Below, in pieces: positions 213 to 44,869 of a stretch of DNA of 44,869 nt. The stretch covers positions 1-44,869 of the IMG/VR virus record IMGVR_UViG_3300032805_000011. One strand, written 5' to 3'. Each line of letters opens with the position of its first letter. Within the stretch, counting starts at the first letter, position 1. Below the pieces are notes generated by a model. It was given only the letters and a program-made list of their open reading frames with translations, had not been told where the DNA came from and made no database searches. The DNA comes from a virus. A program made the position numbers and the translations under genes.

Positions 213-2188
213 ATATCTGAGGGCCATGTATTATTTATCGTATAGTCAAACAAAGCCGCAACAGCAGCGCCAACCCCAGTGGGATTACACTGGATATTAT
301 AAAAATGAAAGCTATCTACCGCTCCAAAATAGTAGCAAGTATGGTTAATATTATTTGGTATAACTTGTACGTTTCTCCACTGATCATAGAATACATCAGC
401 TGTATTTATACCGCTAATATGTATGCCCTGTGGATCAGACCCAGTACCAAAAGAAGCATTTGGGGGAATCCAAACTTGTATGCTATCCCAAACATTATTG
501 TTCGATGCTTTAGTCCCTACAGTCTCAAGGATACCTATATTATAAGAACCAGATACTAATAAACCACGAATGCTACCAAAAGAAGCACTTGTGGTAACTA
601 GACCAAATGAATTAGTAGAAGCTACTTGACTTAAATCTATTGATAAATTTTCAAGACCCCAATCGTTAATTGGGCCATTAACCTTTATGCAAATCCCATA
701 CCAAAGACATCGCAAATTAACTGGCAAGACTGACGGGGTTCCGGTTATTCCATTAATGCCACCACGGGAAGCATTCCCTTCTAATATAATACCAGATGTT
801 GTAGACGCTGTTGTACCATTACCATTACCAATATTTGTTGTTGACGTAAATTGGTAAGTACCCACATTAAGATAGCATTTACCCCCAGTAGAGGGTAAAC
901 TACCTATACAATGCTGCAAAGCAACCGTATCGTCATGGTCGGATATTGCACCGCTTACACTATTGGTCGCTGCATTAGCAACTGTTACTGTTGTAGTACC
1001 ACCACCACTTACTATAGATGTTAAAAGATAATCATTAAGGGCAGCTCCGGGGGGGGATGAAGGAATCCAATCAGGGACAGTAACAGTAGTAGTACCTACA
1101 TCGTTCCATGACTGGGACGTACCACCATTACGAAATATAATAAGCGGAGTCATAGAACCAGAAGTTTTCCCATATACTACACACGCAGCATTACTAGCAG
1201 GGGCCGTCCATGACAATGCATTATAGTTAGTGGTACTAAGTGTGGCATTCCCATTAGTGATTGTAGTAGCTGTAGGAGCCGCGCTCATTCCACCCGCAGC
1301 GTCTAAACATGCAACTTGATACTGATAATGCGTAGAGCCCGTGGTTCCGGTTGCGGTTACACTTAGCCCAGAGGGGTTACCCAAGGAATAAGAAGCGCCA
1401 GCGCCATTGCACCGTATGCCTTGACCGTTTGCAAAATCTATAGCAGAACCAAGAGACATAGATGTAGAAGAACTACTTATGCTGCAAGTAGTACTTTGTA
1501 TAGAACCAGAGGCACCAAAATCATAAGCATTAACTATATCCTTAACTTTACTGTCTAACGTACGTTGCACAGCACCGGTGCCAGATTGTGTAATAGGTAA
1601 AAGACTTTCAGCCGTTGCTCCTGTAGCACCTTGTGCACTACCAGCGGCTCCAGTGCCGATATAGAACTGTGACGTACTAATGCTAGGTAAAGCAGAGTTT
1701 AAATTTGATGTAGTAATAAAATTAGTAGCACAACTAATTCCACTGTTAGGTATATACTGCAACGCACTATTGGAACTCGAACAACTAGCAACACTATTAG
1801 CTATTGATACAGCAGAAGAACCAGTGAAGTTACCCCAAACTGTGTTAGGTCCACTAGTTGTAGTATTTACCATGCAAGTTGGGCAAGTTAGAAAGCCCGT
1901 AGTGGTATTTAGCACCAAAGGAGAAGAAGCATTAGCGGCAATAGTACCAGAAATAGTTGGCGGATTAATTACTACATTACCTGCAACTGCTTGAGGTATA
2001 ATCTCCGCACTACCACTAGTAGCACCTTTAAGGATAACGGCACCTGGAGTTCCCCCATTCTCACCAAGAACAGGTTGCTCGGTATCTACACCGGCATCTG
2101 TGGGCACACAAGAACCAGGACTCGTATATGTACAAGCAACCGCTTGGGCATATAAAAATAAAGAAATTATGAAGACAACTAGCCTCAT
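1..2188 (-). CDS. Tailspike with pectate-lyase-like fold and signal peptide (N-terminal 729 codons; continues at right end)
   Basis: The start ATG (2188-2186) overlaps the stop of the upstream tail gene as ATGA. I read the whole frame to position 1 without a stop. It continues through the circular join to 44431, for 804 aa in total. Residues 1-18 are a hydrophobic signal peptide (MRLVVFIISLFLYAQAVAC), with AVAC a weak lipobox-like end. Around residue 223 is a VNAYDFGA motif, and near 418 a DDTVALQ motif followed by a G-K-C-Y-L-N-V-GTY strand. These are the two halves of the opening motif of pectate-lyase-3/tailspike beta-helices. Between them lies a roughly 100-residue Fn3-like segment. Ser/Thr/Asn/Gly-rich repeats follow, as in a beta-helix. 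The probable role is receptor binding or polysaccharide cleavage at the cell surface. The enzymatic activity is not shown. Confidence 0.85.
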   Translation of the reverse strand, partial: MRLVVFIISLFLYAQAVACTYTSPGSCVPTDAGVDTEQPVLGENGGTPGAVILKGATSGSAEIIPQAVAGNVVINPPTISGTIAANASSPLVLNTTTGFLTCPTCMVNTTTSGPNTVWGNFTGSSAVSIANSVASCSSSNSALQYIPNSGISCATNFITTSNLNSALPSISTSQFYIGTGAAGSAQGATGATAESLLPITQSGTGAVQRTLDSKVKDIVNAYDFGASGSIQSTTCSISSSSTSMSLGSAIDFANGQGIRCNGAGASYSLGNPSGLSVTATGTTGSTHYQYQVACLDAAGGMSAAPTATTITNGNATLSTTNYNALSWTAPASNAACVVYGKTSGSMTPLIIFRNGGTSQSWNDVGTTTVTVPDWIPSSPPGAALNDYLLTSIVSGGGTTTVTVANAATNSVSGAISDHDDTVALQHCIGSLPSTGGKCYLNVGTYQFTSTTNIGNGNGTTASTTSGIILEGNASRGGINGITGTPSVLPVNLRCLWYGICIKVNGPINDWGLENLSIDLSQVASTNSFGLVTTSASFGSIRGLLVSGSYNIGILETVGTKASNNNVWDSIQVWIPPNASFGTGSDPQGIHISGINTADVFYDQWRNVQVIPNNINHTCYYFGAVDSFHFYNIQCNPTGVGAAVAALFDYTINNTWPSDITFYSFDSYTNIFQNNGTPLSTGLNQNRMFDFSRVNGATVPSLANLALMDYSSTGTNAPTLTAGCNGSGSS

Positions 2189-4062
2189 TGTACTACCAAT
2201 AAATAATTAGCACTTCTAGTTGTACCAGAATTACTAGGATGATTAACAGTGAACGAACCTTGACCAGCTACAATAGAGAAATCACCTGAAGCTACATCCT
2301 CAGCAATCCCACCAGGAAGAGGCTGATACTCGACAAACGAAGTAGGCGTGCAAGCAAGGGCGGCACCCGTATTAATAAGCGTGGAAGTTTGGTTAGGATT
2401 AAGCGTAAACTTACCCGTGAGCAAAGACTGAGGAAGCGCTACAAACATGGCCGAACTCTGGAGTATGTAACCAAGTGCTTGCAACCTCGTAACAAGCGGG
2501 CCTATCCGAAGATTTGCCGATGATGGCCCGGAACCTGCAACTGTGCAAGACTTAAACACAAGAGGGTTGGCATAAGCGAGCTGTTGAGCGGCGTAGGCCG
2601 TCAGCGTGCCAAGCCACGGCGCATTGCCCCAAGTGAACTCATCCCAAACCGTGGAGACATTCATACCCTGGAGTTGCGATTGGCCTATAATACGGCTTTG
2701 CTCATCCCTAACAAAGAAGAGGTAAACATCTTCTAAATTAAGCTGCATGTCTATAGTTTGTTCTATAACATTATGCATAGCTCCATCTTTGGAACCAGGA
2801 ACTAAAGGAGTCTGGTAAAGCCAATTGAGAGCGTTACCATTCTCAACATAAGTATTAGTTAGTCCAGGAACAGTATTTGACTGCCAAAGCGATCCTTGAG
2901 CGCTAACGGGGGCAACTATGAAAGTGGACCCCATACCCTGAATAAGGGAAGCTGGGAACGTATGGGGTCCACTCCATCTCTTACCAGAGATATGGTAAAA
3001 ATATTCTTGATAAGGACTACCAGCTAAAACACCATTTTGTAAACTAACTCTTATACAATCTCCTGCATATGCTATAGCTATACGAGAAGGAACTAATGAA
3101 GTGAAGAAAACCCTAGCAATGCCTTTACCATAAGATCCTAGGGGATCACTGACAGCGGCAGCATAATTAATAAATCTAAGTCCATCAGGAGATACAAAGC
3201 AAATATCTTGAGGGGTAGCGCAAACAGAGTTTTGACTAAATGTACCTGTCGCAACATTAAGCTGGTTAATTGCCAGGTTACTTAAAGCAGCATCACCCGT
3301 AAGTTGGTACATTATTATGGTATCAACAAATATTATAATAGATTGAACAATCCCACCCTGAACTTGATTTTGCAAAGGCATACCAATCAAGGCGGTAATA
3401 GATTGGTTAGTACCAAAGGTTAGAACTTGAGTTCCCGATGTACAATTAGTAGCATTATTAGTATCGGAAAATACTAAAGCATTCTGAACAGCATAATAGG
3501 CTCTACTATTAAACTGAGTAATAGAAATAGGTTTACTAGGAAGAGTAACGGCACCCGTCAACGTTCCCGCGCTCCAAGATGGTGCAGCTGGATTATTAAT
3601 ATTTAAAACACCGAAGAAATAACCACCCGCTTGGTTGAATCCTTGGTGTGCAACAAGAATTTCACCTCCGACCAGTGTCATAGTTGGGGGAACCCATGCA
3701 CCATTAATAGATGGGGAAACGGGAGTATTAACAGAAGTTACACCAGATACAGTAACGAAAGTACCAGTAGAGGTGTTATAAACGAATGGTTCATCCTGGC
3801 CAACATTTCTGGATGAAGCAATCATACCATAAACGATGTTACCTACAACCAGCATACAAGAAATAAAGCCAGGGGAAGAAAAACCATTAAATGAAGTTAG
3901 TTCTGTAGAAGCTGGCCTGCATTGCCAGAGGCAATCAGAACCAGTGTCGGGAACTAAGTTCTGCAAAGACAACATCGCACCAGGAAAAGCGAGGTCCATA
4001 GCTGGGGCATCGCTTAGCCCTTGGGGCTTATAGATAACCGGATTAGATTTACGAAGAGCCAT
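2185..4062 (-). CDS. Tail hub/nozzle-like protein (P22 gp10-type, putative)
   Basis: This is a 625-aa protein immediately after the adaptor gene and before the tailspike. Its start lies inside the adaptor's last codons (14-bp overlap) and its stop overlaps the tailspike start as ATGA, so translation is probably coupled. The sequence is almost all beta, with repeated short strands and loops (for example GEILVAHQGFNQAGGYFF and GLRFINYAAA), as in the beta-propeller nozzle or stabilisation proteins of podoviruses (P22 gp10, T7 gp12). An N-terminal segment with PGAMLSLQNLVPDTG resembles the usual start of that group. The call rests on position, size and fold style, not on a signature motif, so a generic tail protein is the safe fallback. 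Confidence 0.65.
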   Translation of the reverse strand: MALRKSNPVIYKPQGLSDAPAMDLAFPGAMLSLQNLVPDTGSDCLWQCRPASTELTSFNGFSSPGFISCMLVVGNIVYGMIASSRNVGQDEPFVYNTSTGTFVTVSGVTSVNTPVSPSINGAWVPPTMTLVGGEILVAHQGFNQAGGYFFGVLNINNPAAPSWSAGTLTGAVTLPSKPISITQFNSRAYYAVQNALVFSDTNNATNCTSGTQVLTFGTNQSITALIGMPLQNQVQGGIVQSIIIFVDTIIMYQLTGDAALSNLAINQLNVATGTFSQNSVCATPQDICFVSPDGLRFINYAAAVSDPLGSYGKGIARVFFTSLVPSRIAIAYAGDCIRVSLQNGVLAGSPYQEYFYHISGKRWSGPHTFPASLIQGMGSTFIVAPVSAQGSLWQSNTVPGLTNTYVENGNALNWLYQTPLVPGSKDGAMHNVIEQTIDMQLNLEDVYLFFVRDEQSRIIGQSQLQGMNVSTVWDEFTWGNAPWLGTLTAYAAQQLAYANPLVFKSCTVAGSGPSSANLRIGPLVTRLQALGYILQSSAMFVALPQSLLTGKFTLNPNQTSTLINTGAALACTPTSFVEYQPLPGGIAEDVASGDFSIVAGQGSFTVNHPSNSGTTRSANYLLVVQ

Positions 4063-4849
4063 TGGCTAACATACCCACCACACAGGTAACGAACATAACA
4101 ATTGGAAAAACGAACCCTACGCTCTTAGTGTTCTTCAAAAGGTCGAAGGGAGAGCTGAACTTATTCCTATCTAGCTTAACCCTAAGTACAGTGCTTTCTA
4201 AGTCTCTCTGCATCGTCAGCCATTTGCTGATAAGCTTCCTCGCTTTCTCATGTTGCTTATCTACTCTATCATCGTCTGCTATGTCCATCATCCTAGCAGA
4301 CAATTCCCAAATAAGGTATTGTTGGAGAGGAAAGGGAGGAACAACCGTAGACACACTAGGATTAACTATATCAGCAGTTAACTTAGCATACCTAATAAAT
4401 ACGGTAAATGCAGCATTAGGTGGTGGCCAGAATTCTATGGTTGGAGGAGTATTGCTATCGTCAACACAGAAAAACACCATCTGGGCATTAAACCCAGTAG
4501 TAGTTATGAGTTGGTCAAACTCACTACGTTGCTTCTGAATGAGGGTATAGGGCACCCCAGACACAAGATAAAAGCACTCATCCTCTAGTATACGAAGGTG
4601 ATCGGGAGCAAGGTTGTAATAAGGGATGTTGGACGTAATAGTAAAACCAGAAGGAGCGGCAGTATTGACCTGCCACAACCCACGATCATACTCAAGATCG
4701 TTGATTTGTACTAGCTCCTCCAGAATAATATTAAGAAACTGCCCGGCCTGGATAACCATACCGGGAGTTTTGGAGATAGCACAGGCTAAACTAATGAGCT
4801 GCGCCGCTGTTTGAGCCAAGACGTTTCTCCATTTGCGCAGCATCGGCAA
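4049..4849 (-). CDS. Head-tail adaptor (P22 gp4 / T7 gp11-like, putative)
   Basis: This is a 266-aa protein between a coiled-coil protein and the nozzle-like protein. The N-terminal helices (QTAAQLISLACAISKTPG, then a helix with ILEELVQINDLEYDRGLW), a central beta part containing EFWPPPNAAFTVFIRYAK, and a C-terminal helical part (LIWELSARMMDIADDDR) match the architecture of podovirus adaptor proteins that join portal to tail. Two in-frame ATGs (4849, 4843) could start it; both lie inside the upstream gene (59-bp overlap). The last 22 residues are hydrophobic (FPIVMFVTCVVGMLANG), which is odd for an adaptor. They could be an embedded strand or a read-out of the overlap region. Confidence 0.6.
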   Translation of the reverse strand: MPMLRKWRNVLAQTAAQLISLACAISKTPGMVIQAGQFLNIILEELVQINDLEYDRGLWQVNTAAPSGFTITSNIPYYNLAPDHLRILEDECFYLVSGVPYTLIQKQRSEFDQLITTTGFNAQMVFFCVDDSNTPPTIEFWPPPNAAFTVFIRYAKLTADIVNPSVSTVVPPFPLQQYLIWELSARMMDIADDDRVDKQHEKARKLISKWLTMQRDLESTVLRVKLDRNKFSSPFDLLKNTKSVGFVFPIVMFVTCVVGMLANGSS

Positions 4850-8529: not shown

Positions 8530-9405
8530 CTAAACTTTTTTTCCTGCTTCAACCTCCTTAAGTTTGCTCTCTAAGCTATCTATGATAGCTGTAGTAGTAG
8601 CATTAGAATTATTGACCCAGGAATGTTTATACCATTCAATAAGAGCAATGATAGCTGTGCAGCCATAAACAGGCAGGGAATTAATACCAATTAGGTCCCA
8701 TAAACTATTGAAGTGCTGAAGAGCATATGCAAGGAAAGTGAGAAAAAATCCCTGACTAACGGTAGCAACCTTATGGCCAAGCTGTGGAATAATGGCTGTA
8801 GTGGCATTAAGCGGAACGGTAACTAAAGAGTCTGTAGTAATCATATTCTTCGCCAATATGGCAGCTCCTTTCGGCACCGGATGAGACGAGTCATACTCTG
8901 CCACATAAGTCTCCGCTTGCAAAGGGGGATCGTCTGGCGTATTCCAAAGTTTTATCTCGGCATTACGGCGATTAACCAAACCCGGAATTATCTTGGAACC
9001 CGTGGCACGTCCATGCACGTATAGTTTAAGATGAGAAGGAACTAAAGAATATTGACGGTTATTAATTAAAGTAACAATGGGAGAGTCGATCAGTTCTCCC
9101 TCCCCACAATTATATGCAAAAGATACAAGAGCTATAAACTGATTATTGGTAAGAGGAACTTTTATAAGCTTATGAACTTCGTCCTCAAAAGGTTTTAGCT
9201 CCTTAAGAAAGGTATCATCTATCTGCTGCCGGGTCATAACCGTTGTACGAGTTATGCCATGCGTGAGACCAGGACCTATATTCCAGCAGCCACCTATGGA
9301 GTCGTAAGTAGAACGGTAGGAGCCATCGGGCAATCTCCCTTCTTTACCCGTCCATTCTTCAGACTCTATAAACTGTTCAAGAGTTAGAGCTACCATGAGT
9401 ACCAC
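8530..9405 (-). CDS. GH24 lysozyme (muramidase) with C-terminal membrane module
   Basis: This enzyme cleaves the glycan strands of peptidoglycan. Residues 1-160 show the T4/P21-type GH24 pattern: catalytic Glu region ESEEWTGKEG (14-23), YDSIGGCWNIGPGLTHG (34-50) in place of the usual D-x-x-G-x-x-TIG-x-G-x-T, LTNNQFIALVSFAYNCG (85-101), and GLVNRRNAE (142-150). From about 160 to 291 there is an extra region with two hydrophobic segments (about 212-230 and 238-252), then a charged helix. GH24 endolysins are normally about 150-180 aa, so this is a fusion or membrane-anchored form. A second ATG at 9396 is an equally good start. It overlaps the M15 peptidase end. Confidence 0.85.
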   Translation of the reverse strand: MVLMVALTLEQFIESEEWTGKEGRLPDGSYRSTYDSIGGCWNIGPGLTHGITRTTVMTRQQIDDTFLKELKPFEDEVHKLIKVPLTNNQFIALVSFAYNCGEGELIDSPIVTLINNRQYSLVPSHLKLYVHGRATGSKIIPGLVNRRNAEIKLWNTPDDPPLQAETYVAEYDSSHPVPKGAAILAKNMITTDSLVTVPLNATTAIIPQLGHKVATVSQGFFLTFLAYALQHFNSLWDLIGINSLPVYGCTAIIALIEWYKHSWVNNSNATTTAIIDSLESKLKEVEAGKKV

Positions 9406-9890
9406 CTACGAACGCGACGCCTACCATCATCAACATGACCGCAGTCGCGAATACCATAAAAGGGAGCTACAAAGCTGCAACCATTACGGAAGTGATGCTT
9501 TTGTATAATTTTAGCAGCGATGTAAGAACGCATGAAAGGAGAGCGGCTTAGAGAACCATCGAAGTCGCAAGCAGCACCCGCATAATGCCGGGAATTGGGA
9601 ACATGGCCATAGGAAGCATAACAACCTATGCGGCGAGGAGTATAGCCATGAGCCACAAAGTCTGCAATAAGGGCCTGAAAGCGTGGGGCTAGATGCCGGG
9701 CAACTGTGATAGGAATACCAGCGGCAGTGGGCACTGTCACTAGGTAAGAACTAGGATGAACATGATGAGAACGACGATGAATATGGCGATGATGCGGATG
9801 ATGTTTATAGGCAACATGATGACGATGCGAGTGAGCTTCAGCTGATGTGAAGAGAAGAAAGGTTAGGAATAAAGAGATAAGCCTTACCAT
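9390..9890 (-). CDS. Secreted M15-type zinc peptidase (D,D-carboxypeptidase/endolysin-like)
   Basis: This 166-aa protein probably cuts peptide cross-links or stems in peptidoglycan. Residues 1-19 are a signal peptide (MVRLISLFLTFLLFTSAEA). Residues 20-45 form a His-rich linker with about 13 histidines. The catalytic part carries S100-R-H102-Y-A-G-A-A-C-D109 (the SxHxxGxAxD zinc motif of M15/VanY peptidases) and G-H152-V-D as the third ligand region. I chose the ATG at 9890 because it begins the signal peptide; a GTG at 9908 in the same frame would place six residues before it. It overlaps the portal stop by little and the lysozyme start by up to 16 bp. Confidence 0.82.
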   Translation of the reverse strand: MVRLISLFLTFLLFTSAEAHSHRHHVAYKHHPHHRHIHRRSHHVHPSSYLVTVPTAAGIPITVARHLAPRFQALIADFVAHGYTPRRIGCYASYGHVPNSRHYAGAACDFDGSLSRSPFMRSYIAAKIIQKHHFRNGCSFVAPFYGIRDCGHVDDGRRRVRRWYSW

Positions 9891-18584: not shown

Positions 18585-19469
18585 ATGAAACCCTATAACC
18601 CTTGTTTCACTAAGTTGCTTGCGTTCATGCTCGAGCGTCATGCTTGCGATGCCGCCATCGGCGCTGTCATGGTAGCCACGGACTGGGATGCTCTAGCTCG
18701 TAACCCCAATGCCCGGGATTGGGCAGAGTGGTTACGCTGGAAGCACCCGCCCTTGGCTCCCGCCTGGGAGGCTTACGCGGCGGCCGGGGCTACCGCCCGG
18801 GAGGCTTACGAGGCAGCCGGGGCTCCCGCCTGGGAGGCTTACGAGGCAGCCGCGGCTGCCGCCTGGGAGGCTTACAAGGCAGCCAGGGCTACCGCCTGGG
18901 AGGCTTACGAGGCAGCCGGGGCTCCCGCCTGGGAGGCTTACGCGGCAGCCTCGGCTGCCGCCTGGGAGGCTTACAAGGCAGCCAGGGCTACCGCCTGGGA
19001 GGCTTACGAGGCAGCCGCGGCTCCCGCCCGGGAGGCTTACGAGGCAGCCGCGGATGCCGCCTGGGAGGCTTACGCGGCAGCCGGGGCTCCCGCCCGGGAG
19101 GCTTACAAGGCAGCCGGGGCTCCCGCCTGGGAGGCTTACGCGGCAGCCAGGGCTCCCGCCCGGGAGGCTTACGCGGCAGCCATCGCTACCGCCTGGGAGG
19201 CTCACGCGGCAGCCGGGGCTACCGCCCGGGAGGCTTACGAGGCAGCCGGGGCTCCCGCCCGGGAGGCTTACGAGGCAGCCAGGGCTCCCGCCCGGGAGGC
19301 TTACGAGGCAGCCAGGGCTCCCGCCCGGGAGGCTTACGCGGCAGCCATCGCTACCGCTTGGGAGGCTCACGAGGCAGCCACCGTTACCGCCCGGGAGGCT
19401 TACGAGGCAGCCATCGCTACCGCCTGGGAGGCTTTGAAACTGGCGATAATAAAGGAGTTCGATACATGA
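18585..19469 (+). CDS. Alanine-rich 11-residue-repeat protein
   Basis: This is a 294-aa protein with AAGGAG before its ATG. Residues 1-59 form a head containing ACDAAIGAV...TDWDAL...DWAEWLRWKH. This resembles the start of small phage/bacterial proteins in which a C-x2-A...DW-x-x-W-L segment precedes Ala-rich repeats, sometimes labelled putative immunity proteins (low confidence). Residues 60-279 are 20 unbroken 11-residue units of the form A-[WR]-E-A-[YH]-x-A-A-x-A-x, then a partial unit. An 11-residue period fits a long amphipathic helix or hendecad coiled coil. The 33-bp period is a multiple of three, so other frames also stay open; those are shadows. Role unknown. Confidence 0.75.
   Translation: MKPYNPCFTKLLAFMLERHACDAAIGAVMVATDWDALARNPNARDWAEWLRWKHPPLAPAWEAYAAAGATAREAYEAAGAPAWEAYEAAAAAAWEAYKAARATAWEAYEAAGAPAWEAYAAASAAAWEAYKAARATAWEAYEAAAAPAREAYEAAADAAWEAYAAAGAPAREAYKAAGAPAWEAYAAARAPAREAYAAAIATAWEAHAAAGATAREAYEAAGAPAREAYEAARAPAREAYEAARAPAREAYAAAIATAWEAHEAATVTAREAYEAAIATAWEALKLAIIKEFDT
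18762..19421 (+). repeat. Twenty tandem 33-bp coding repeats
   Basis: Exactly 660 bp, twenty units beginning GCC[T/C]GGGAGGCTTACG, with a partial 21st unit at 19422. Variation is concentrated at a few positions (W/R, Y/H, E/K/A and the last three residues of each unit) and no unit changes length, so the frame is kept. GC-rich compared with the flanks. Confidence 0.95.
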
Positions 19470-31700: not shown

Positions 31701-32990
31701 CTATCTATATGAAAAGTTCAACCCCAGCCCATGTTTTTGTAGCTTAGGCAGTACCTTCTCAAGCTTGTAGCCGATATCGTTGCGATACATGCAGCTATTT
31801 GGGATGTGTATCTCTTTTAAATTAGTGTAAGCGTTGTCACTGGCCTCTTTAATAGTAGAGCCATGACCAGTAATGCAACAAATATTATCACCAGCGGTAA
31901 CCCATTCACCAGCCCTATTCTTCTTCATCATATAGGGATGGTGATGAAGATTACCATCTTCAAAACCGAATACCGGAATCCCATTAACTTCCTTACCTGT
32001 TAGATGAGAGTAGGGAAAATCGGGTATAGCAAGTACCACACCGCTAGTAACAATATTAGTGCGAAAAGACGGAGCCCTATTCTCGTAGAGATTAGTGACA
32101 AAATCACCCTTATTAATTGAGAGTTGAAGCTGGAAACACGGCCACCCAGGTCTGCAAGTAAACTCAAGCGGGTAGATTTGGCCATTGTTGGCAACGATGC
32201 AGTTGAGGTTGATAAACCCGCAATAACGATGTGCCGTTAAATGATCGGTAAGAGGACTGAGGACTTTTTCGGCAATTTTGGAAGTTCTAAAGGCAGCATT
32301 AATTGTTCCCATTTCTCCGGTTGCCGGGCCAATGTCTCCAGACATAAATTTCTTATGCTCAAAAGACTCATGGAATCCAGCGTCCTTAGACCAGCCTTCC
32401 CCGTCGAACCATCCTTCGGCACCGAACTCCACTCCTTCTATGAAATCTTGAAGCATGAACTGCTGCTTAAGCTTGCCTAGCTTGCGCCAGCGATCAAGCA
32501 TATAAATCATGTCTTCCGGAGACTTGGAGACGTAGGTTAGAGATTTATCGTCCTGGTCGTTCCCGAAGGGTTTAGACACCAAGCGAGTGTCACGCTTTTG
32601 CACGTAGGCAATTGCGGTGTCGTAGTCGTTAAAGACCCTATAAGGGGCAACAGGGATACCATACTTATCAAGTAAATCTTGACCATATTTCCTATCGCTC
32701 TCCCATCTTGCATGCTCTTTAGTTGGACCTATCCAGACTGTAGACTTAGGAGTTGTCTCTCTCAGCCTATCGAAAGTGTGCATTAAGTTAGCATTATCAG
32801 CGATAAAAACAACGTCTGCGCTATTAGTAACCCTACCAATATCTCCTCTAATACGGCGCACGACATTTTCACCAATGAACCGTATACTGGGCTTATCTCT
32901 GATAAAATGGACAACATCGTGTCCCTGGCTTTGAGCTAGGAGAGAAATATCGAGGGCTAACCCGTCAGGGTCTAATAAAACGAATTTCAT
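31701..32990 (-). CDS. PurD-like ATP-grasp ligase
   Basis: This 429-aa protein resembles phosphoribosylamine-glycine ligase (GAR synthetase, PurD). It shows an N-terminal Rossmann-like start (MKFVLLDPDGLALDISLLAQ), ATP-grasp B-domain strands (TRLVSKPFGND at 135-145, QFMLQDFIEGVEFGAEGWF), the PurD-like GDIGPATGEMGT (218-229), and the metal/ATP-site strand YPLEFTCRPGWP (273-284). In PurD the last motif is normally E-F-N-x-R-F-G-D-P-E; here N is T and DPE is WPC, so the substrate may differ. It lies among late genes, not metabolic ones. A TATAAT on the minus strand (33010-33005) 15 bases before the start hints at its own promoter. Confidence 0.82.
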   Translation of the reverse strand: MKFVLLDPDGLALDISLLAQSQGHDVVHFIRDKPSIRFIGENVVRRIRGDIGRVTNSADVVFIADNANLMHTFDRLRETTPKSTVWIGPTKEHARWESDRKYGQDLLDKYGIPVAPYRVFNDYDTAIAYVQKRDTRLVSKPFGNDQDDKSLTYVSKSPEDMIYMLDRWRKLGKLKQQFMLQDFIEGVEFGAEGWFDGEGWSKDAGFHESFEHKKFMSGDIGPATGEMGTINAAFRTSKIAEKVLSPLTDHLTAHRYCGFINLNCIVANNGQIYPLEFTCRPGWPCFQLQLSINKGDFVTNLYENRAPSFRTNIVTSGVVLAIPDFPYSHLTGKEVNGIPVFGFEDGNLHHHPYMMKKNRAGEWVTAGDNICCITGHGSTIKEASDNAYTNLKEIHIPNSCMYRNDIGYKLEKVLPKLQKHGLGLNFSYR

Positions 32991-42547: not shown

Positions 42548-44155
42548 CTAGTTCGCATTAACAGCATCTACCCAACCTGCAACTGCTAATATATTACCTG
42601 TGTTACTAGACCAAAAGTAAATGCTATTACTTTCCAAGGGTATATTTGTAACCTGACTTTCCGTTACATTTGAGGCACTTGAATTTCTAGATATCCATGG
42701 CATGGGATTACCACTTACCGGGGCAGCATAGTTTGCATTAGGAGCCACACCAGACTCAAGCCCGCTTACAGAATATAAGTTAGACAGCACTTCGGTGGAA
42801 GTAGTTGGGCTACCAGTATTATTACCTGTGACCTGATATGCAACCCAAGAACTAGTAGCACTAGTCGTAGTAAAAGGATACGATGACGTATTGCTAGTAC
42901 CTGTTATAACATATCTAGATTTGTTTCCTGTTTGTAATGTTCTATAGAGGTTGTTACTACCATCTGTCTCCATAGCCCCTACACGGTAAAAATATGTGTA
43001 CCCACTCGGAAGTGTAGGAGACGAAGAGTTGGTACTAGCTAGACAACCAGTAGTAGACAAATTTGAAATGATATAAATGTTATACCATGTAGATGCAGCT
43101 ATGCTTCCAGTATCTAAACCATTTAGTCCGTTTATACTCAAGTTTAGTGTACAACTAAAGCTAGTGAACGAGGTTGACACTCCAGAAGAGTTAGCCAAAG
43201 TCACATATGTAGCAGATACATCTATTTTAGTATTTGGTGTAGTGCCATCATTCGTTATTTTAAGAGAATTAGCTCCAGGTAAACTATGCCCTATTGAACT
43301 ATTAGGTATCGAAGGATTAACTAATTGTCCGATGTTCCAATTAGTCCCATCCGTAATCGCTAATAGCATCTCCGATGCTTGAACTGCAAAGGTGGATCCG
43401 CCCGTAGGCACAAAGGCACCGGAGGGCGTAGATAATGTAGCGACTGCGGAAGCCCCGCTGTTGAAAGCTAGGGTACAAACTTGTGCTGGAGCACTTGAGG
43501 GCGTAGGTAAATTAACTGTATAAGTACCAGTGCCAAGACCGTAGTAAGAACCACAACTAGAGGACGCGACAGTAGTTGTAGTAGTTAATCCAGCATTACC
43601 AAAAAGAAAGTTTCCAGGCTGGTAACTATTAGTAATCCATTCATATTGAGTGCCATCATATTGTACGCAAGTAAGTTGGCCGGAAGTAAACTCACCACCA
43701 GCTAGGGATTGAAGCCCGTAGGGGGTTTGCTTAAGTACACTTGTCACACCAGTGCTATTAACATTTAACGTTGTTCCTCCAGAGATATTAGTAGCCCCAG
43801 CGGAAAAGCAAACTATAGGCTTATTAACCAAAGAAAACCCAGTAGGTATAAGAGGGGCAGAAACAACTTGTGCATTAGCAGAACCAGTGGAAGTACCACC
43901 AATATAAATTTGGGAGCCACCTTGAGCAGCGGATAGGGGGGTACTGAGACCAACTAAAGCAGTAATATTAGAATTAGTTCCGGCTGTTGCACCATTAGAG
44001 TTAACTTGAGAGATAATGTAATTATAATTAGCCATAACTTGGCTAGCATCGGCGGTAGTACCGTTCGTAAGGGTATAAGGAAGTGAACCTATAATCTGCG
44101 CTTGGGAAGCAGAGAAAGTAAAGAGGACTAAGAGGCTAACGAGTAACTTGCGCAT
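42548..44155 (-). CDS. Tail-fibre-like protein with signal peptide
   Basis: This 535-aa protein has residues 1-19 as a clear Sec signal peptide (MRKLLVSLLVLFTFSASQA, cut before Q). The rest is Ser/Thr/Asn/Gly-rich beta sequence: DASQVMANYNYIISQVNSNG (about 36-55) as in the N-termini of phage tail proteins, QYDGTQYEWIT, and GLDTGSIAASTWYNIYII with PSGYTYFYRVG, a motif common in phage fibre or collar proteins. A signal peptide on such a protein is unusual. Its start lies 20 bp inside the preceding gene's end. Confidence 0.78.
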   Translation of the reverse strand: MRKLLVSLLVLFTFSASQAQIIGSLPYTLTNGTTADASQVMANYNYIISQVNSNGATAGTNSNITALVGLSTPLSAAQGGSQIYIGGTSTGSANAQVVSAPLIPTGFSLVNKPIVCFSAGATNISGGTTLNVNSTGVTSVLKQTPYGLQSLAGGEFTSGQLTCVQYDGTQYEWITNSYQPGNFLFGNAGLTTTTTVASSSCGSYYGLGTGTYTVNLPTPSSAPAQVCTLAFNSGASAVATLSTPSGAFVPTGGSTFAVQASEMLLAITDGTNWNIGQLVNPSIPNSSIGHSLPGANSLKITNDGTTPNTKIDVSATYVTLANSSGVSTSFTSFSCTLNLSINGLNGLDTGSIAASTWYNIYIISNLSTTGCLASTNSSSPTLPSGYTYFYRVGAMETDGSNNLYRTLQTGNKSRYVITGTSNTSSYPFTTTSATSSWVAYQVTGNNTGSPTTSTEVLSNLYSVSGLESGVAPNANYAAPVSGNPMPWISRNSSASNVTESQVTNIPLESNSIYFWSSNTGNILAVAGWVDAVNAN

Positions 44156-44441
44156 GATTCTTTACTTTCTTATGATACTTAAGAGTTAGCTTTACTTTTA
44201 GCTCATTTACTTGGGCCTGTAAATCAGTTATCTGACGCTGTAAATCAATATCCATTTGGAATTGAACTTTGATCTTGTCTCTTAAATCCTGAAGATCGAA
44301 GGCCAGCTTATTTGGGTCTATAGTAGAGTAAATACTTTTGTTAGGAACCTTATCAAACCGTTGACCATAAGAGATAGACATGCTCATAAGCATAAAAACG
44401 TAAGCAATACATACAACTATAGTCCGTATGTTAGAAACCAT
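44136..44441 (-). CDS. Small signal-peptide or membrane-anchored coiled-coil protein
   Basis: This 101-aa protein starts at the ATG at 44441 (AGGG upstream), 11 bp inside the tailspike's end; an earlier in-frame start at 44513 lies in the tailspike. Residues 5-24 are hydrophobic (IRTIVVCIAYVFMLMSMSIS) with a possible cut after SYG, then a coiled coil (FDLQDLRDKIKVQFQMDIDL...ITDLQAQVNELKVKL) and a Lys-rich end. It could be a spanin-like or a secreted chaperone-type helper for the adjacent fibre proteins; no motif decides. Confidence 0.65.
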   Translation of the reverse strand: MVSNIRTIVVCIAYVFMLMSMSISYGQRFDKVPNKSIYSTIDPNKLAFDLQDLRDKIKVQFQMDIDLQRQITDLQAQVNELKVKLTLKYHKKVKNHAQVTR

Positions 44442-44869
44442 TACATTGCCCTGTAAATTTGTAATTAGCTGTACTAGCAAAGGTGACTTGAACACTTGAA
44501 GTGCTAATCGCATTTACTGACGTAATAGCGGATTGATAACCCTGGAAGTTACAAAGCGGCGCATTACTCCAACTGACGGGAGTCGCGAATGTTACCGTGC
44601 AGGTAGTAGCAGCAGAAGTTTGCCCGACCACAGTAAACAAACCATTTGTTCCTGTAATACTCGAACCAGAACCATTACAACCAGCAGTTAATGTTGGTGC
44701 GTTAGTGCCAGTGCTGGAGTAATCCATTAAGGCTAAGTTAGCCAATGACGGGACTGTAGCACCATTTACCCTGGAAAAATCAAATATACGATTTTGATTA
44801 AGCCCTGTTGACAATGGGGTGCCATTATTCTGAAATATATTCGTATAGCTATCAAAGCTATAAAAGGTA
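44431..44869 (-). CDS. Tailspike, C-terminal part (continues from left end)
   Basis: This is the rest of the tailspike gene that begins at 2188. The frame is the same through the 212-bp repeat, and the stop TAA is at 44433-44431. The C-terminal 75 residues beyond the repeat are a beta-rich end (VTFATPVSWSNAPLCNFQG, ISTSSVQVTFASTANYKF) of the type seen in trimerising tailspike tips. Codon 44785 reads Ile here versus Met in the left copy. Confidence 0.85.
   Translation of the reverse strand, partial: TFYSFDSYTNIFQNNGTPLSTGLNQNRIFDFSRVNGATVPSLANLALMDYSSTGTNAPTLTAGCNGSGSSITGTNGLFTVVGQTSAATTCTVTFATPVSWSNAPLCNFQGYQSAITSVNAISTSSVQVTFASTANYKFTGQCNGF
44658..44869. repeat. Direct terminal repeat, right copy
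   Basis: Same sequence as 1-212 with one difference (T at 44785 versus C at 128). See the left copy. Confidence 0.9.

Follow-up and report, generated by a model that had tools for sequence, protein, structure and literature searches.

Predicted Sec signals on the spike and fibre of an environmental short-tailed phage suggest receptor-binding proteins that may fold in the periplasm and join the tail at lysis

Tailed phages are taught to be assembled entirely in the cytoplasm, and exported phage proteins are usually annotated as lysis or exclusion factors. A receptor-binding protein with a Sec signal that is exported before assembly is known from the filamentous phages (pIII), an unrelated virus type assembled in the membrane without lysis. 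We know of no tailed phage that docks its fibres after export, and the literature searched, which mostly excluded subscription papers, yielded no account of tailed-phage fibres with a signal peptide. The tail of Kuravirus SU10 contains an adaptor (gp11), a nozzle (gp17) and a short fibre (gp16), and the short fibres bind the nozzle (PMC9509320).

The DNA analysed here, called the window below, is a virus record of 44.9 kb taken at its full length. Its fibre and spike resemble pIII in being receptor-binding proteins with a Sec signal, and differ from it in virus type and in the lysis-free membrane assembly of the filamentous phage. Like SU10, the window has an SU10-type adaptor and a fibre gene adjoining a presumed nozzle, whereas the similarity of the nozzles is not detectable by sequence and the SU10 paper does not use the term signal peptide (PMC9509320). 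Phage tail-collar or short tail fibres (PF07484; PHROG tail collar fibre) share with the exported fibres described below the tail-gene neighbourhood and the combination of a conserved N-domain with a variable C-terminus; a Phage Tail Collar domain forms the C-terminus in 33 of 57 signal-bearing relatives. In contrast to such fibres, the exported ones add a Sec-type signal and a cysteine-rich body, and that of the window ends in phrog_17105. By description, the MAT proteins of Bdellovibrio are also alike, being exported, phage-fibre-like and furnished with a beta-rich domain that immediately follows the signal peptide, and some have an S74 domain; unlike the window proteins, they are bacterial surface adhesins and not phage genes (PMC10769870). 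Lambda Lom-type proteins (PMC12309495) are exported from a gene between tail-fibre genes, as in our cassette, but are outer-membrane beta-barrels and not fibres.

The ends of the window overlap by 212 bp (1–212 and 44658–44869) with one mismatch, and the genome is circular or permuted. The mismatch, a C/T difference at positions 128 and 44785 by which Ile replaces Met in the spike, is likely strain variation in the assembly. The late genes lie on the minus strand in the order adaptor, 625-aa nozzle-like gene, spike, 101-aa coiled-coil protein (hereafter coil) and 535-aa fibre. The adaptor (4049–4849) matches SU10_adaptor (Pfam PF24175, E=1.1e-6); its homologs begin MALTAAQIV..., and the TTG start listed for it is probably too early. 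The next gene (2185–4062, minus) has homologs in 104 loci, where it usually adjoins the fibre on its upstream side; as it has no sequence match in PHROGs or the PDB, the name nozzle rests on position. Because the contig ends overlap, the spike of 804 aa spans the junction: it starts at 2188 on the minus strand, its residues 1–729 are encoded by 1–2188, and its last part follows after the junction at 44431–44869. The coil (44136–44441, minus) overlaps both the spike and the fibre genes, and the fibre (42548–44155, minus) consists of a signal, an attachment-type N-domain (residues 20–180) and a variable C-terminus. The coordinates thus confirm what the sequence-only reading had claimed, that spike, coil and fibre are overlapping genes; they are consecutive, on the same strand, each overlapping the next, and directly follow the presumed nozzle gene. 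The interval to which that reading had assigned them, 42548–44441, holds the coil and the fibre and misses the start of the spike, since the spike crosses the junction. Elsewhere in the window, a 294-aa protein (18585–19469, plus) is made almost entirely of A-W/R-E-A-Y-type repeats, and a 429-aa protein amid the late genes (31701–32990, minus) resembles, by look alone, an ATP-grasp/GARS-type enzyme.

To predict export signals, we devised a Sec rule of our own and calibrated it with proteins of E. coli K-12 and T7. It passed 20/20 secreted and 3/80 cytoplasmic proteins of E. coli (0/80 at a score of at least 3.3) and 4/54 T7 proteins, none of them a structural virion protein; 8/28 membrane proteins of E. 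coli pass as well, and the rule does not separate cleaved signals from N-terminal anchors. Spike, coil and fibre, proposed in the sequence-only reading to begin with a signal peptide or membrane anchor, all passed, with scores of 4.81, 3.35 and 4.10, the coil marginally. The positive n-region, hydrophobic h-region and small residues at -3/-1 are clear in spike and fibre. The spike begins MRLVVFIISLFLYAQAVACTY, and its predicted signal peptide (2135–2188, minus) covers residues 1–16 or 1–18, with a cut between AQA and V or between AVA and C; only 3 of 2000 shuffles score as high. In the fibre, the predicted signal peptide (44099–44155, minus; residues 1–19, cut between SQA and Q) is MRKLLVSLLVLFTFSASQA, followed after the cut by QIIGSL. 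The coil begins MVSNIRTIVVCIAYVFMLMSMSISYGQRF, and its signal peptide or N-terminal anchor (44364–44441, minus; about residues 1–26) is the weakest of the three, as shuffling of this N-terminus gives a score as high in 9% of cases. No canonical lipobox L-x-x-C is present, the spike showing A-V-A-C and the cut sites of fibre and coil lacking a cysteine, and lipoprotein anchoring was rejected. The rule passes only one other of the 42 window genes, apart from a match in the adaptor that is an artefact of the unlikely upstream TTG start; by simple arithmetic, three in a row among four marked genes of 42 are expected in about 1.4% of arrangements. The fourth gene (9390–9890, minus), in the lysis region, encodes a signal-bearing 166-aa protein with a peptidase M15-like motif (RHYAGAACDFD...GHVD) and no Pfam match.

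Relatives of the fibre were collected by scanning IMG/VR for D-A-x-[QE]-V-M-A-N-[FY]-N, a motif taken from the fibre N-domain, which gave 112 loci, 97 of them distinct. About 75 of the distinct relatives bear a signal and about 22 do not; the former count comprises 71 passing the Sec rule and four (L031, L039, L053, L091) added by eye, whose clear-looking signals have tryptophan-rich cores missed by the rule. In 57 aligned signal-bearing fibres, K/R occupies position 2 in 51, and A is found at -3 in 45 and at -1 in 55. The predicted cut falls mostly 16–17 residues before the motif, and signal-less relatives start mostly 15–19 residues before it; since the two positions match, the domain occurs in two forms, one with a signal added in front and one without. 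On a tree of the nozzle, a signal is present in 70/84 rows and has changed five times. All-or-none export of the cassette is ruled out by mixed loci, in which an exported first gene accompanies a signal-less fibre (L069/L111) or a signal-less fibre has exported neighbours (L063).

The sequence-only reading had also suggested a coordinated exported system, and a search of related phages in IMG/VR for co-occurring signal genes bears this out: runs of two to four such genes directly follow the nozzle in 28/66 signal-bearing loci with a called nozzle. By position after the nozzle, signal genes make up 31/49 at +2, 11/41 at +3 and 2/77 at +4 to +6, and upstream, at -2 to -6, 11/198; the fibre itself often occupies +1 owing to the way the loci were chosen, and signals called at the adaptor (22/52) were not counted, since they stem from starts placed too far upstream or from coil genes. 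Exported spike- or fibre-like proteins lie between nozzle and fibre in six loci (L007, L009, L026, L040, L041, L076), and two of these, L040 and L076, have a spike, a small exported coiled coil and a fibre in the same order as the window. A second exported fibre family (tail-fibre PHROG 4492) is often found downstream of the fibre, with a signal in 10/10 loci fetched. Over the whole contigs of four signal-bearing relatives, signal genes are otherwise few, and certain of these look fibre-like as well. Direct searches found no close relatives of the window spike or coil. Analogous exported coils occur in seven loci (L030, L040, L063, L067, L092, L108, L113) and on the contigs of L033 and L077, beside the fibre, beside the nozzle or elsewhere; in L003, the coil, the preceding gene and the fibre are all signal-less. 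The window coil has a weak TolA_bind_tri match, below the cut-off.

Gene context and domains connect the exported proteins with phage tails. Directly upstream of the fibre, a nozzle homolog is present in 67/85 loci with a signal-bearing fibre and in 12/27 with a signal-less one. Besides the collar domains mentioned above, other signal-bearing fibres match tail-fibre PHROGs, and L040 has an S74 chaperone domain. The AlphaFold model of the window fibre N-domain is good (residues 81–170 above 90) and in a BFVD fold search matches V5YST5, a tail-collar fibre of Pseudomonas phage PPpW-3; the 550-aa tail protein of PPpW-3 bears no signal. A PDB profile search matched a short stretch of the fibre to chains named tail fibre, and the fold search against the PDB gave nothing significant. 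Residues 252–384 of the spike resemble Salmonella phage tailspikes (E about 1e-8), and residues 366–722 align with the signal-bearing protein of L007 (E=7.7e-19); the AlphaFold model of the spike (mean pLDDT 32) is too poor to judge a trimeric beta-helix fold.

Signal-bearing and signal-less fibres also differ in cysteines. A pair, one cysteine near the mature N-terminus and the other about 14 residues after the motif, is present in 62/75 signal-bearing and 0/22 signal-less fibres, and the two co-occur (62 with both, 33 with neither, 2 with a single one). Over the mature protein, signal-bearing fibres have a median of 1.41 cysteines per 100 aa and signal-less ones 0.41 (p=8e-8, with relatives treated as independent despite their kinship). 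Such statistics are limited by kinship, as no more than five signal changes are required on the nozzle tree; over five independent pairs on that tree, the cysteines change the same way in 3–4 and the opposite way in 0 (sign test, p about 0.25). The window fibre has six cysteines, without the conserved pair. The signal-less fibre of L063 is 34% identical to it from residue 26 to the last residue, has only two codons to an upstream stop and thus no room for a signal, and contains 0 cysteines in 519 residues, vs six in the window fibre; in the second fibre of this phage, the signal is retained and 2 cysteines are present. This pattern is the one expected from disulfide formation in the oxidising periplasm.

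From these results, a hypothesis regarding the assembly of the particle may be formulated, which we consider somewhat better than an even bet: spike, coil and fibre would form the receptor-binding cassette of a short-tailed phage, whose fibre and spike would leave the cytoplasm through Sec, fold and become oxidised in the periplasm, and attach to the tail when the cell lyses. Each protein would be made with a cleavable signal peptide and cross the inner membrane, the signal would be removed at an A-x-A-type site so that the normal attachment domain becomes the new N-terminus, and the mature proteins would trimerise and form disulfides in the periplasm, with the small exported coiled coil as a possible folding or trimerisation partner. 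Heads, tail adaptor and nozzle would meanwhile be assembled in the cytoplasm; once the inner membrane is breached at lysis, the particles would meet the fibres, whose N-domains would dock on the tail. The parts of this scheme differ in strength. Export of the cassette proteins, as predicted from sequence, is well supported, and gene position, domains and signal-less orthologs make them likely virion fibres. Signal cleavage, disulfides in the fibres and their presence in virions are what we infer, and docking at lysis would be the simplest route to the particles. A helper role of the coil, which recurs and is sometimes far from the fibre, is a guess.

Homologs outside environmental phages were sought as well. 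Searches by nozzle or N-domain gave no isolated relative, only a weak partial portal match. Distant signal-less relatives of the fibre occur in the cultured or named phages HMO-2011, S-2L, Manatee Spring podoviruses, KBNP1711, Peat1 and ppBjS10J-1. When 84,980 genomes were scanned with the fibre motif pattern, true relatives turned up at 13 loci, which belong to Alphaproteobacteria or unclassified Proteobacteria; where the start is present, their proteins are predicted to be exported and bear cysteines, and many adjoin RHS/YD-repeat genes, not phage genes. Judging from these relatives, the host of the window phage is probably alphaproteobacterial. On alphaproteobacterial chromosomes (L128, L130, L131, L133, L134, L136, L137), an exported fibre-like protein with the same N-domain is encoded next to an exported RHS-repeat mini-protein of 90–100 aa, often also next to a very large secreted RHS protein; such loci possibly encode a surface system of the bacteria that has components in common with phage fibres.

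These chromosomal relatives, exported beside RHS genes and not in prophages, imply that the domain can act as a cell-surface or secreted protein, and together with the Bdellovibrio MAT proteins, exported fibre-like adhesins (PMC10769870), they favour a reading in which the phage proteins are exported yet stay outside the virion, masking receptors (superinfection exclusion) or serving as adhesins or secreted lectins, while the virion uses other, unrecognised receptor-binding proteins. We regard this as unlikely, given that signal-less relatives with the same full architecture occupy the same slot after the nozzle, that tail-collar domains are present, that no further fibre gene was recognised in the window beyond the spike/fibre cassette, and that a location on the outer surface would require an extra export step. 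Of the three functions offered in the sequence-only reading, the unusual fibre-assembly route agrees best with the data, given that one fibre domain occurs in one slot both with and without a signal and that many of the proteins carry tail-collar domains. An exclusion layer or a free adhesin has no positive evidence in phages. Capture of the exported fibre, signal included, from an alphaproteobacterial RHS-linked fibre gene, with the signal merely tolerated by the phage, would explain the cysteines at corresponding positions in those chromosomal relatives that have a signal-like start, and the alignment of L133 with the window fibre at both ends. The retention of signals across a diverse phage tree argues for selection rather than tolerance, and this origin seems very doubtful.

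An uncut hydrophobic N-terminus, kept in the virion as a membrane anchor or plug, for instance as a tether of the fibre to the inner membrane or tail, would agree with the passing of membrane proteins by the Sec rule and with the weak cut site of the coil. The A-x-A at a fixed place in the aligned fibres, the coincidence of the junction with the start of signal-less relatives, and the cysteine coupling all fit cleavage with a periplasmic body and count against such an anchor, making it doubtful. Hardly credible is the idea that the signals arose by chance or from wrongly called start codons, with translation beginning at the mature N-terminus. A GTG does lie near the mature start in some relatives, but SD-like 4-mers precede the signal start in 28/75 and the mature start in only 1/75, and chance is ruled out by the signals kept in about three quarters of the distinct relatives.

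If the receptor-binding proteins of a large environmental phage group do share a conserved export signal, part of the virion would mature in a second compartment, host range would be tied to the export and disulfide machinery of the host, and fibre annotation practice would change. Extended to a whole lineage of tailed phages, whose fibres and spikes would be folded and oxidised in the periplasm and fitted to otherwise finished particles only during lysis, the proposal stands, in our judgement, evenly poised. Such two-compartment virion assembly is potentially new for tailed phages, with no precedent found in the literature searched. Outside the nozzle cassette, the contig of L046 encodes further large signal-bearing proteins (L154:1041–3620 and L153:10105–12246), and in one of them a Peptidase_S74 chaperone domain narrowly misses the cut-off. 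Exported proteins of 214–237 aa with no Pfam match are encoded at L004:1374–2015 and L153:17719–18429, and that of L004 has NYKFNF as its last residues, resembling a Lom-type outer-membrane beta-barrel.
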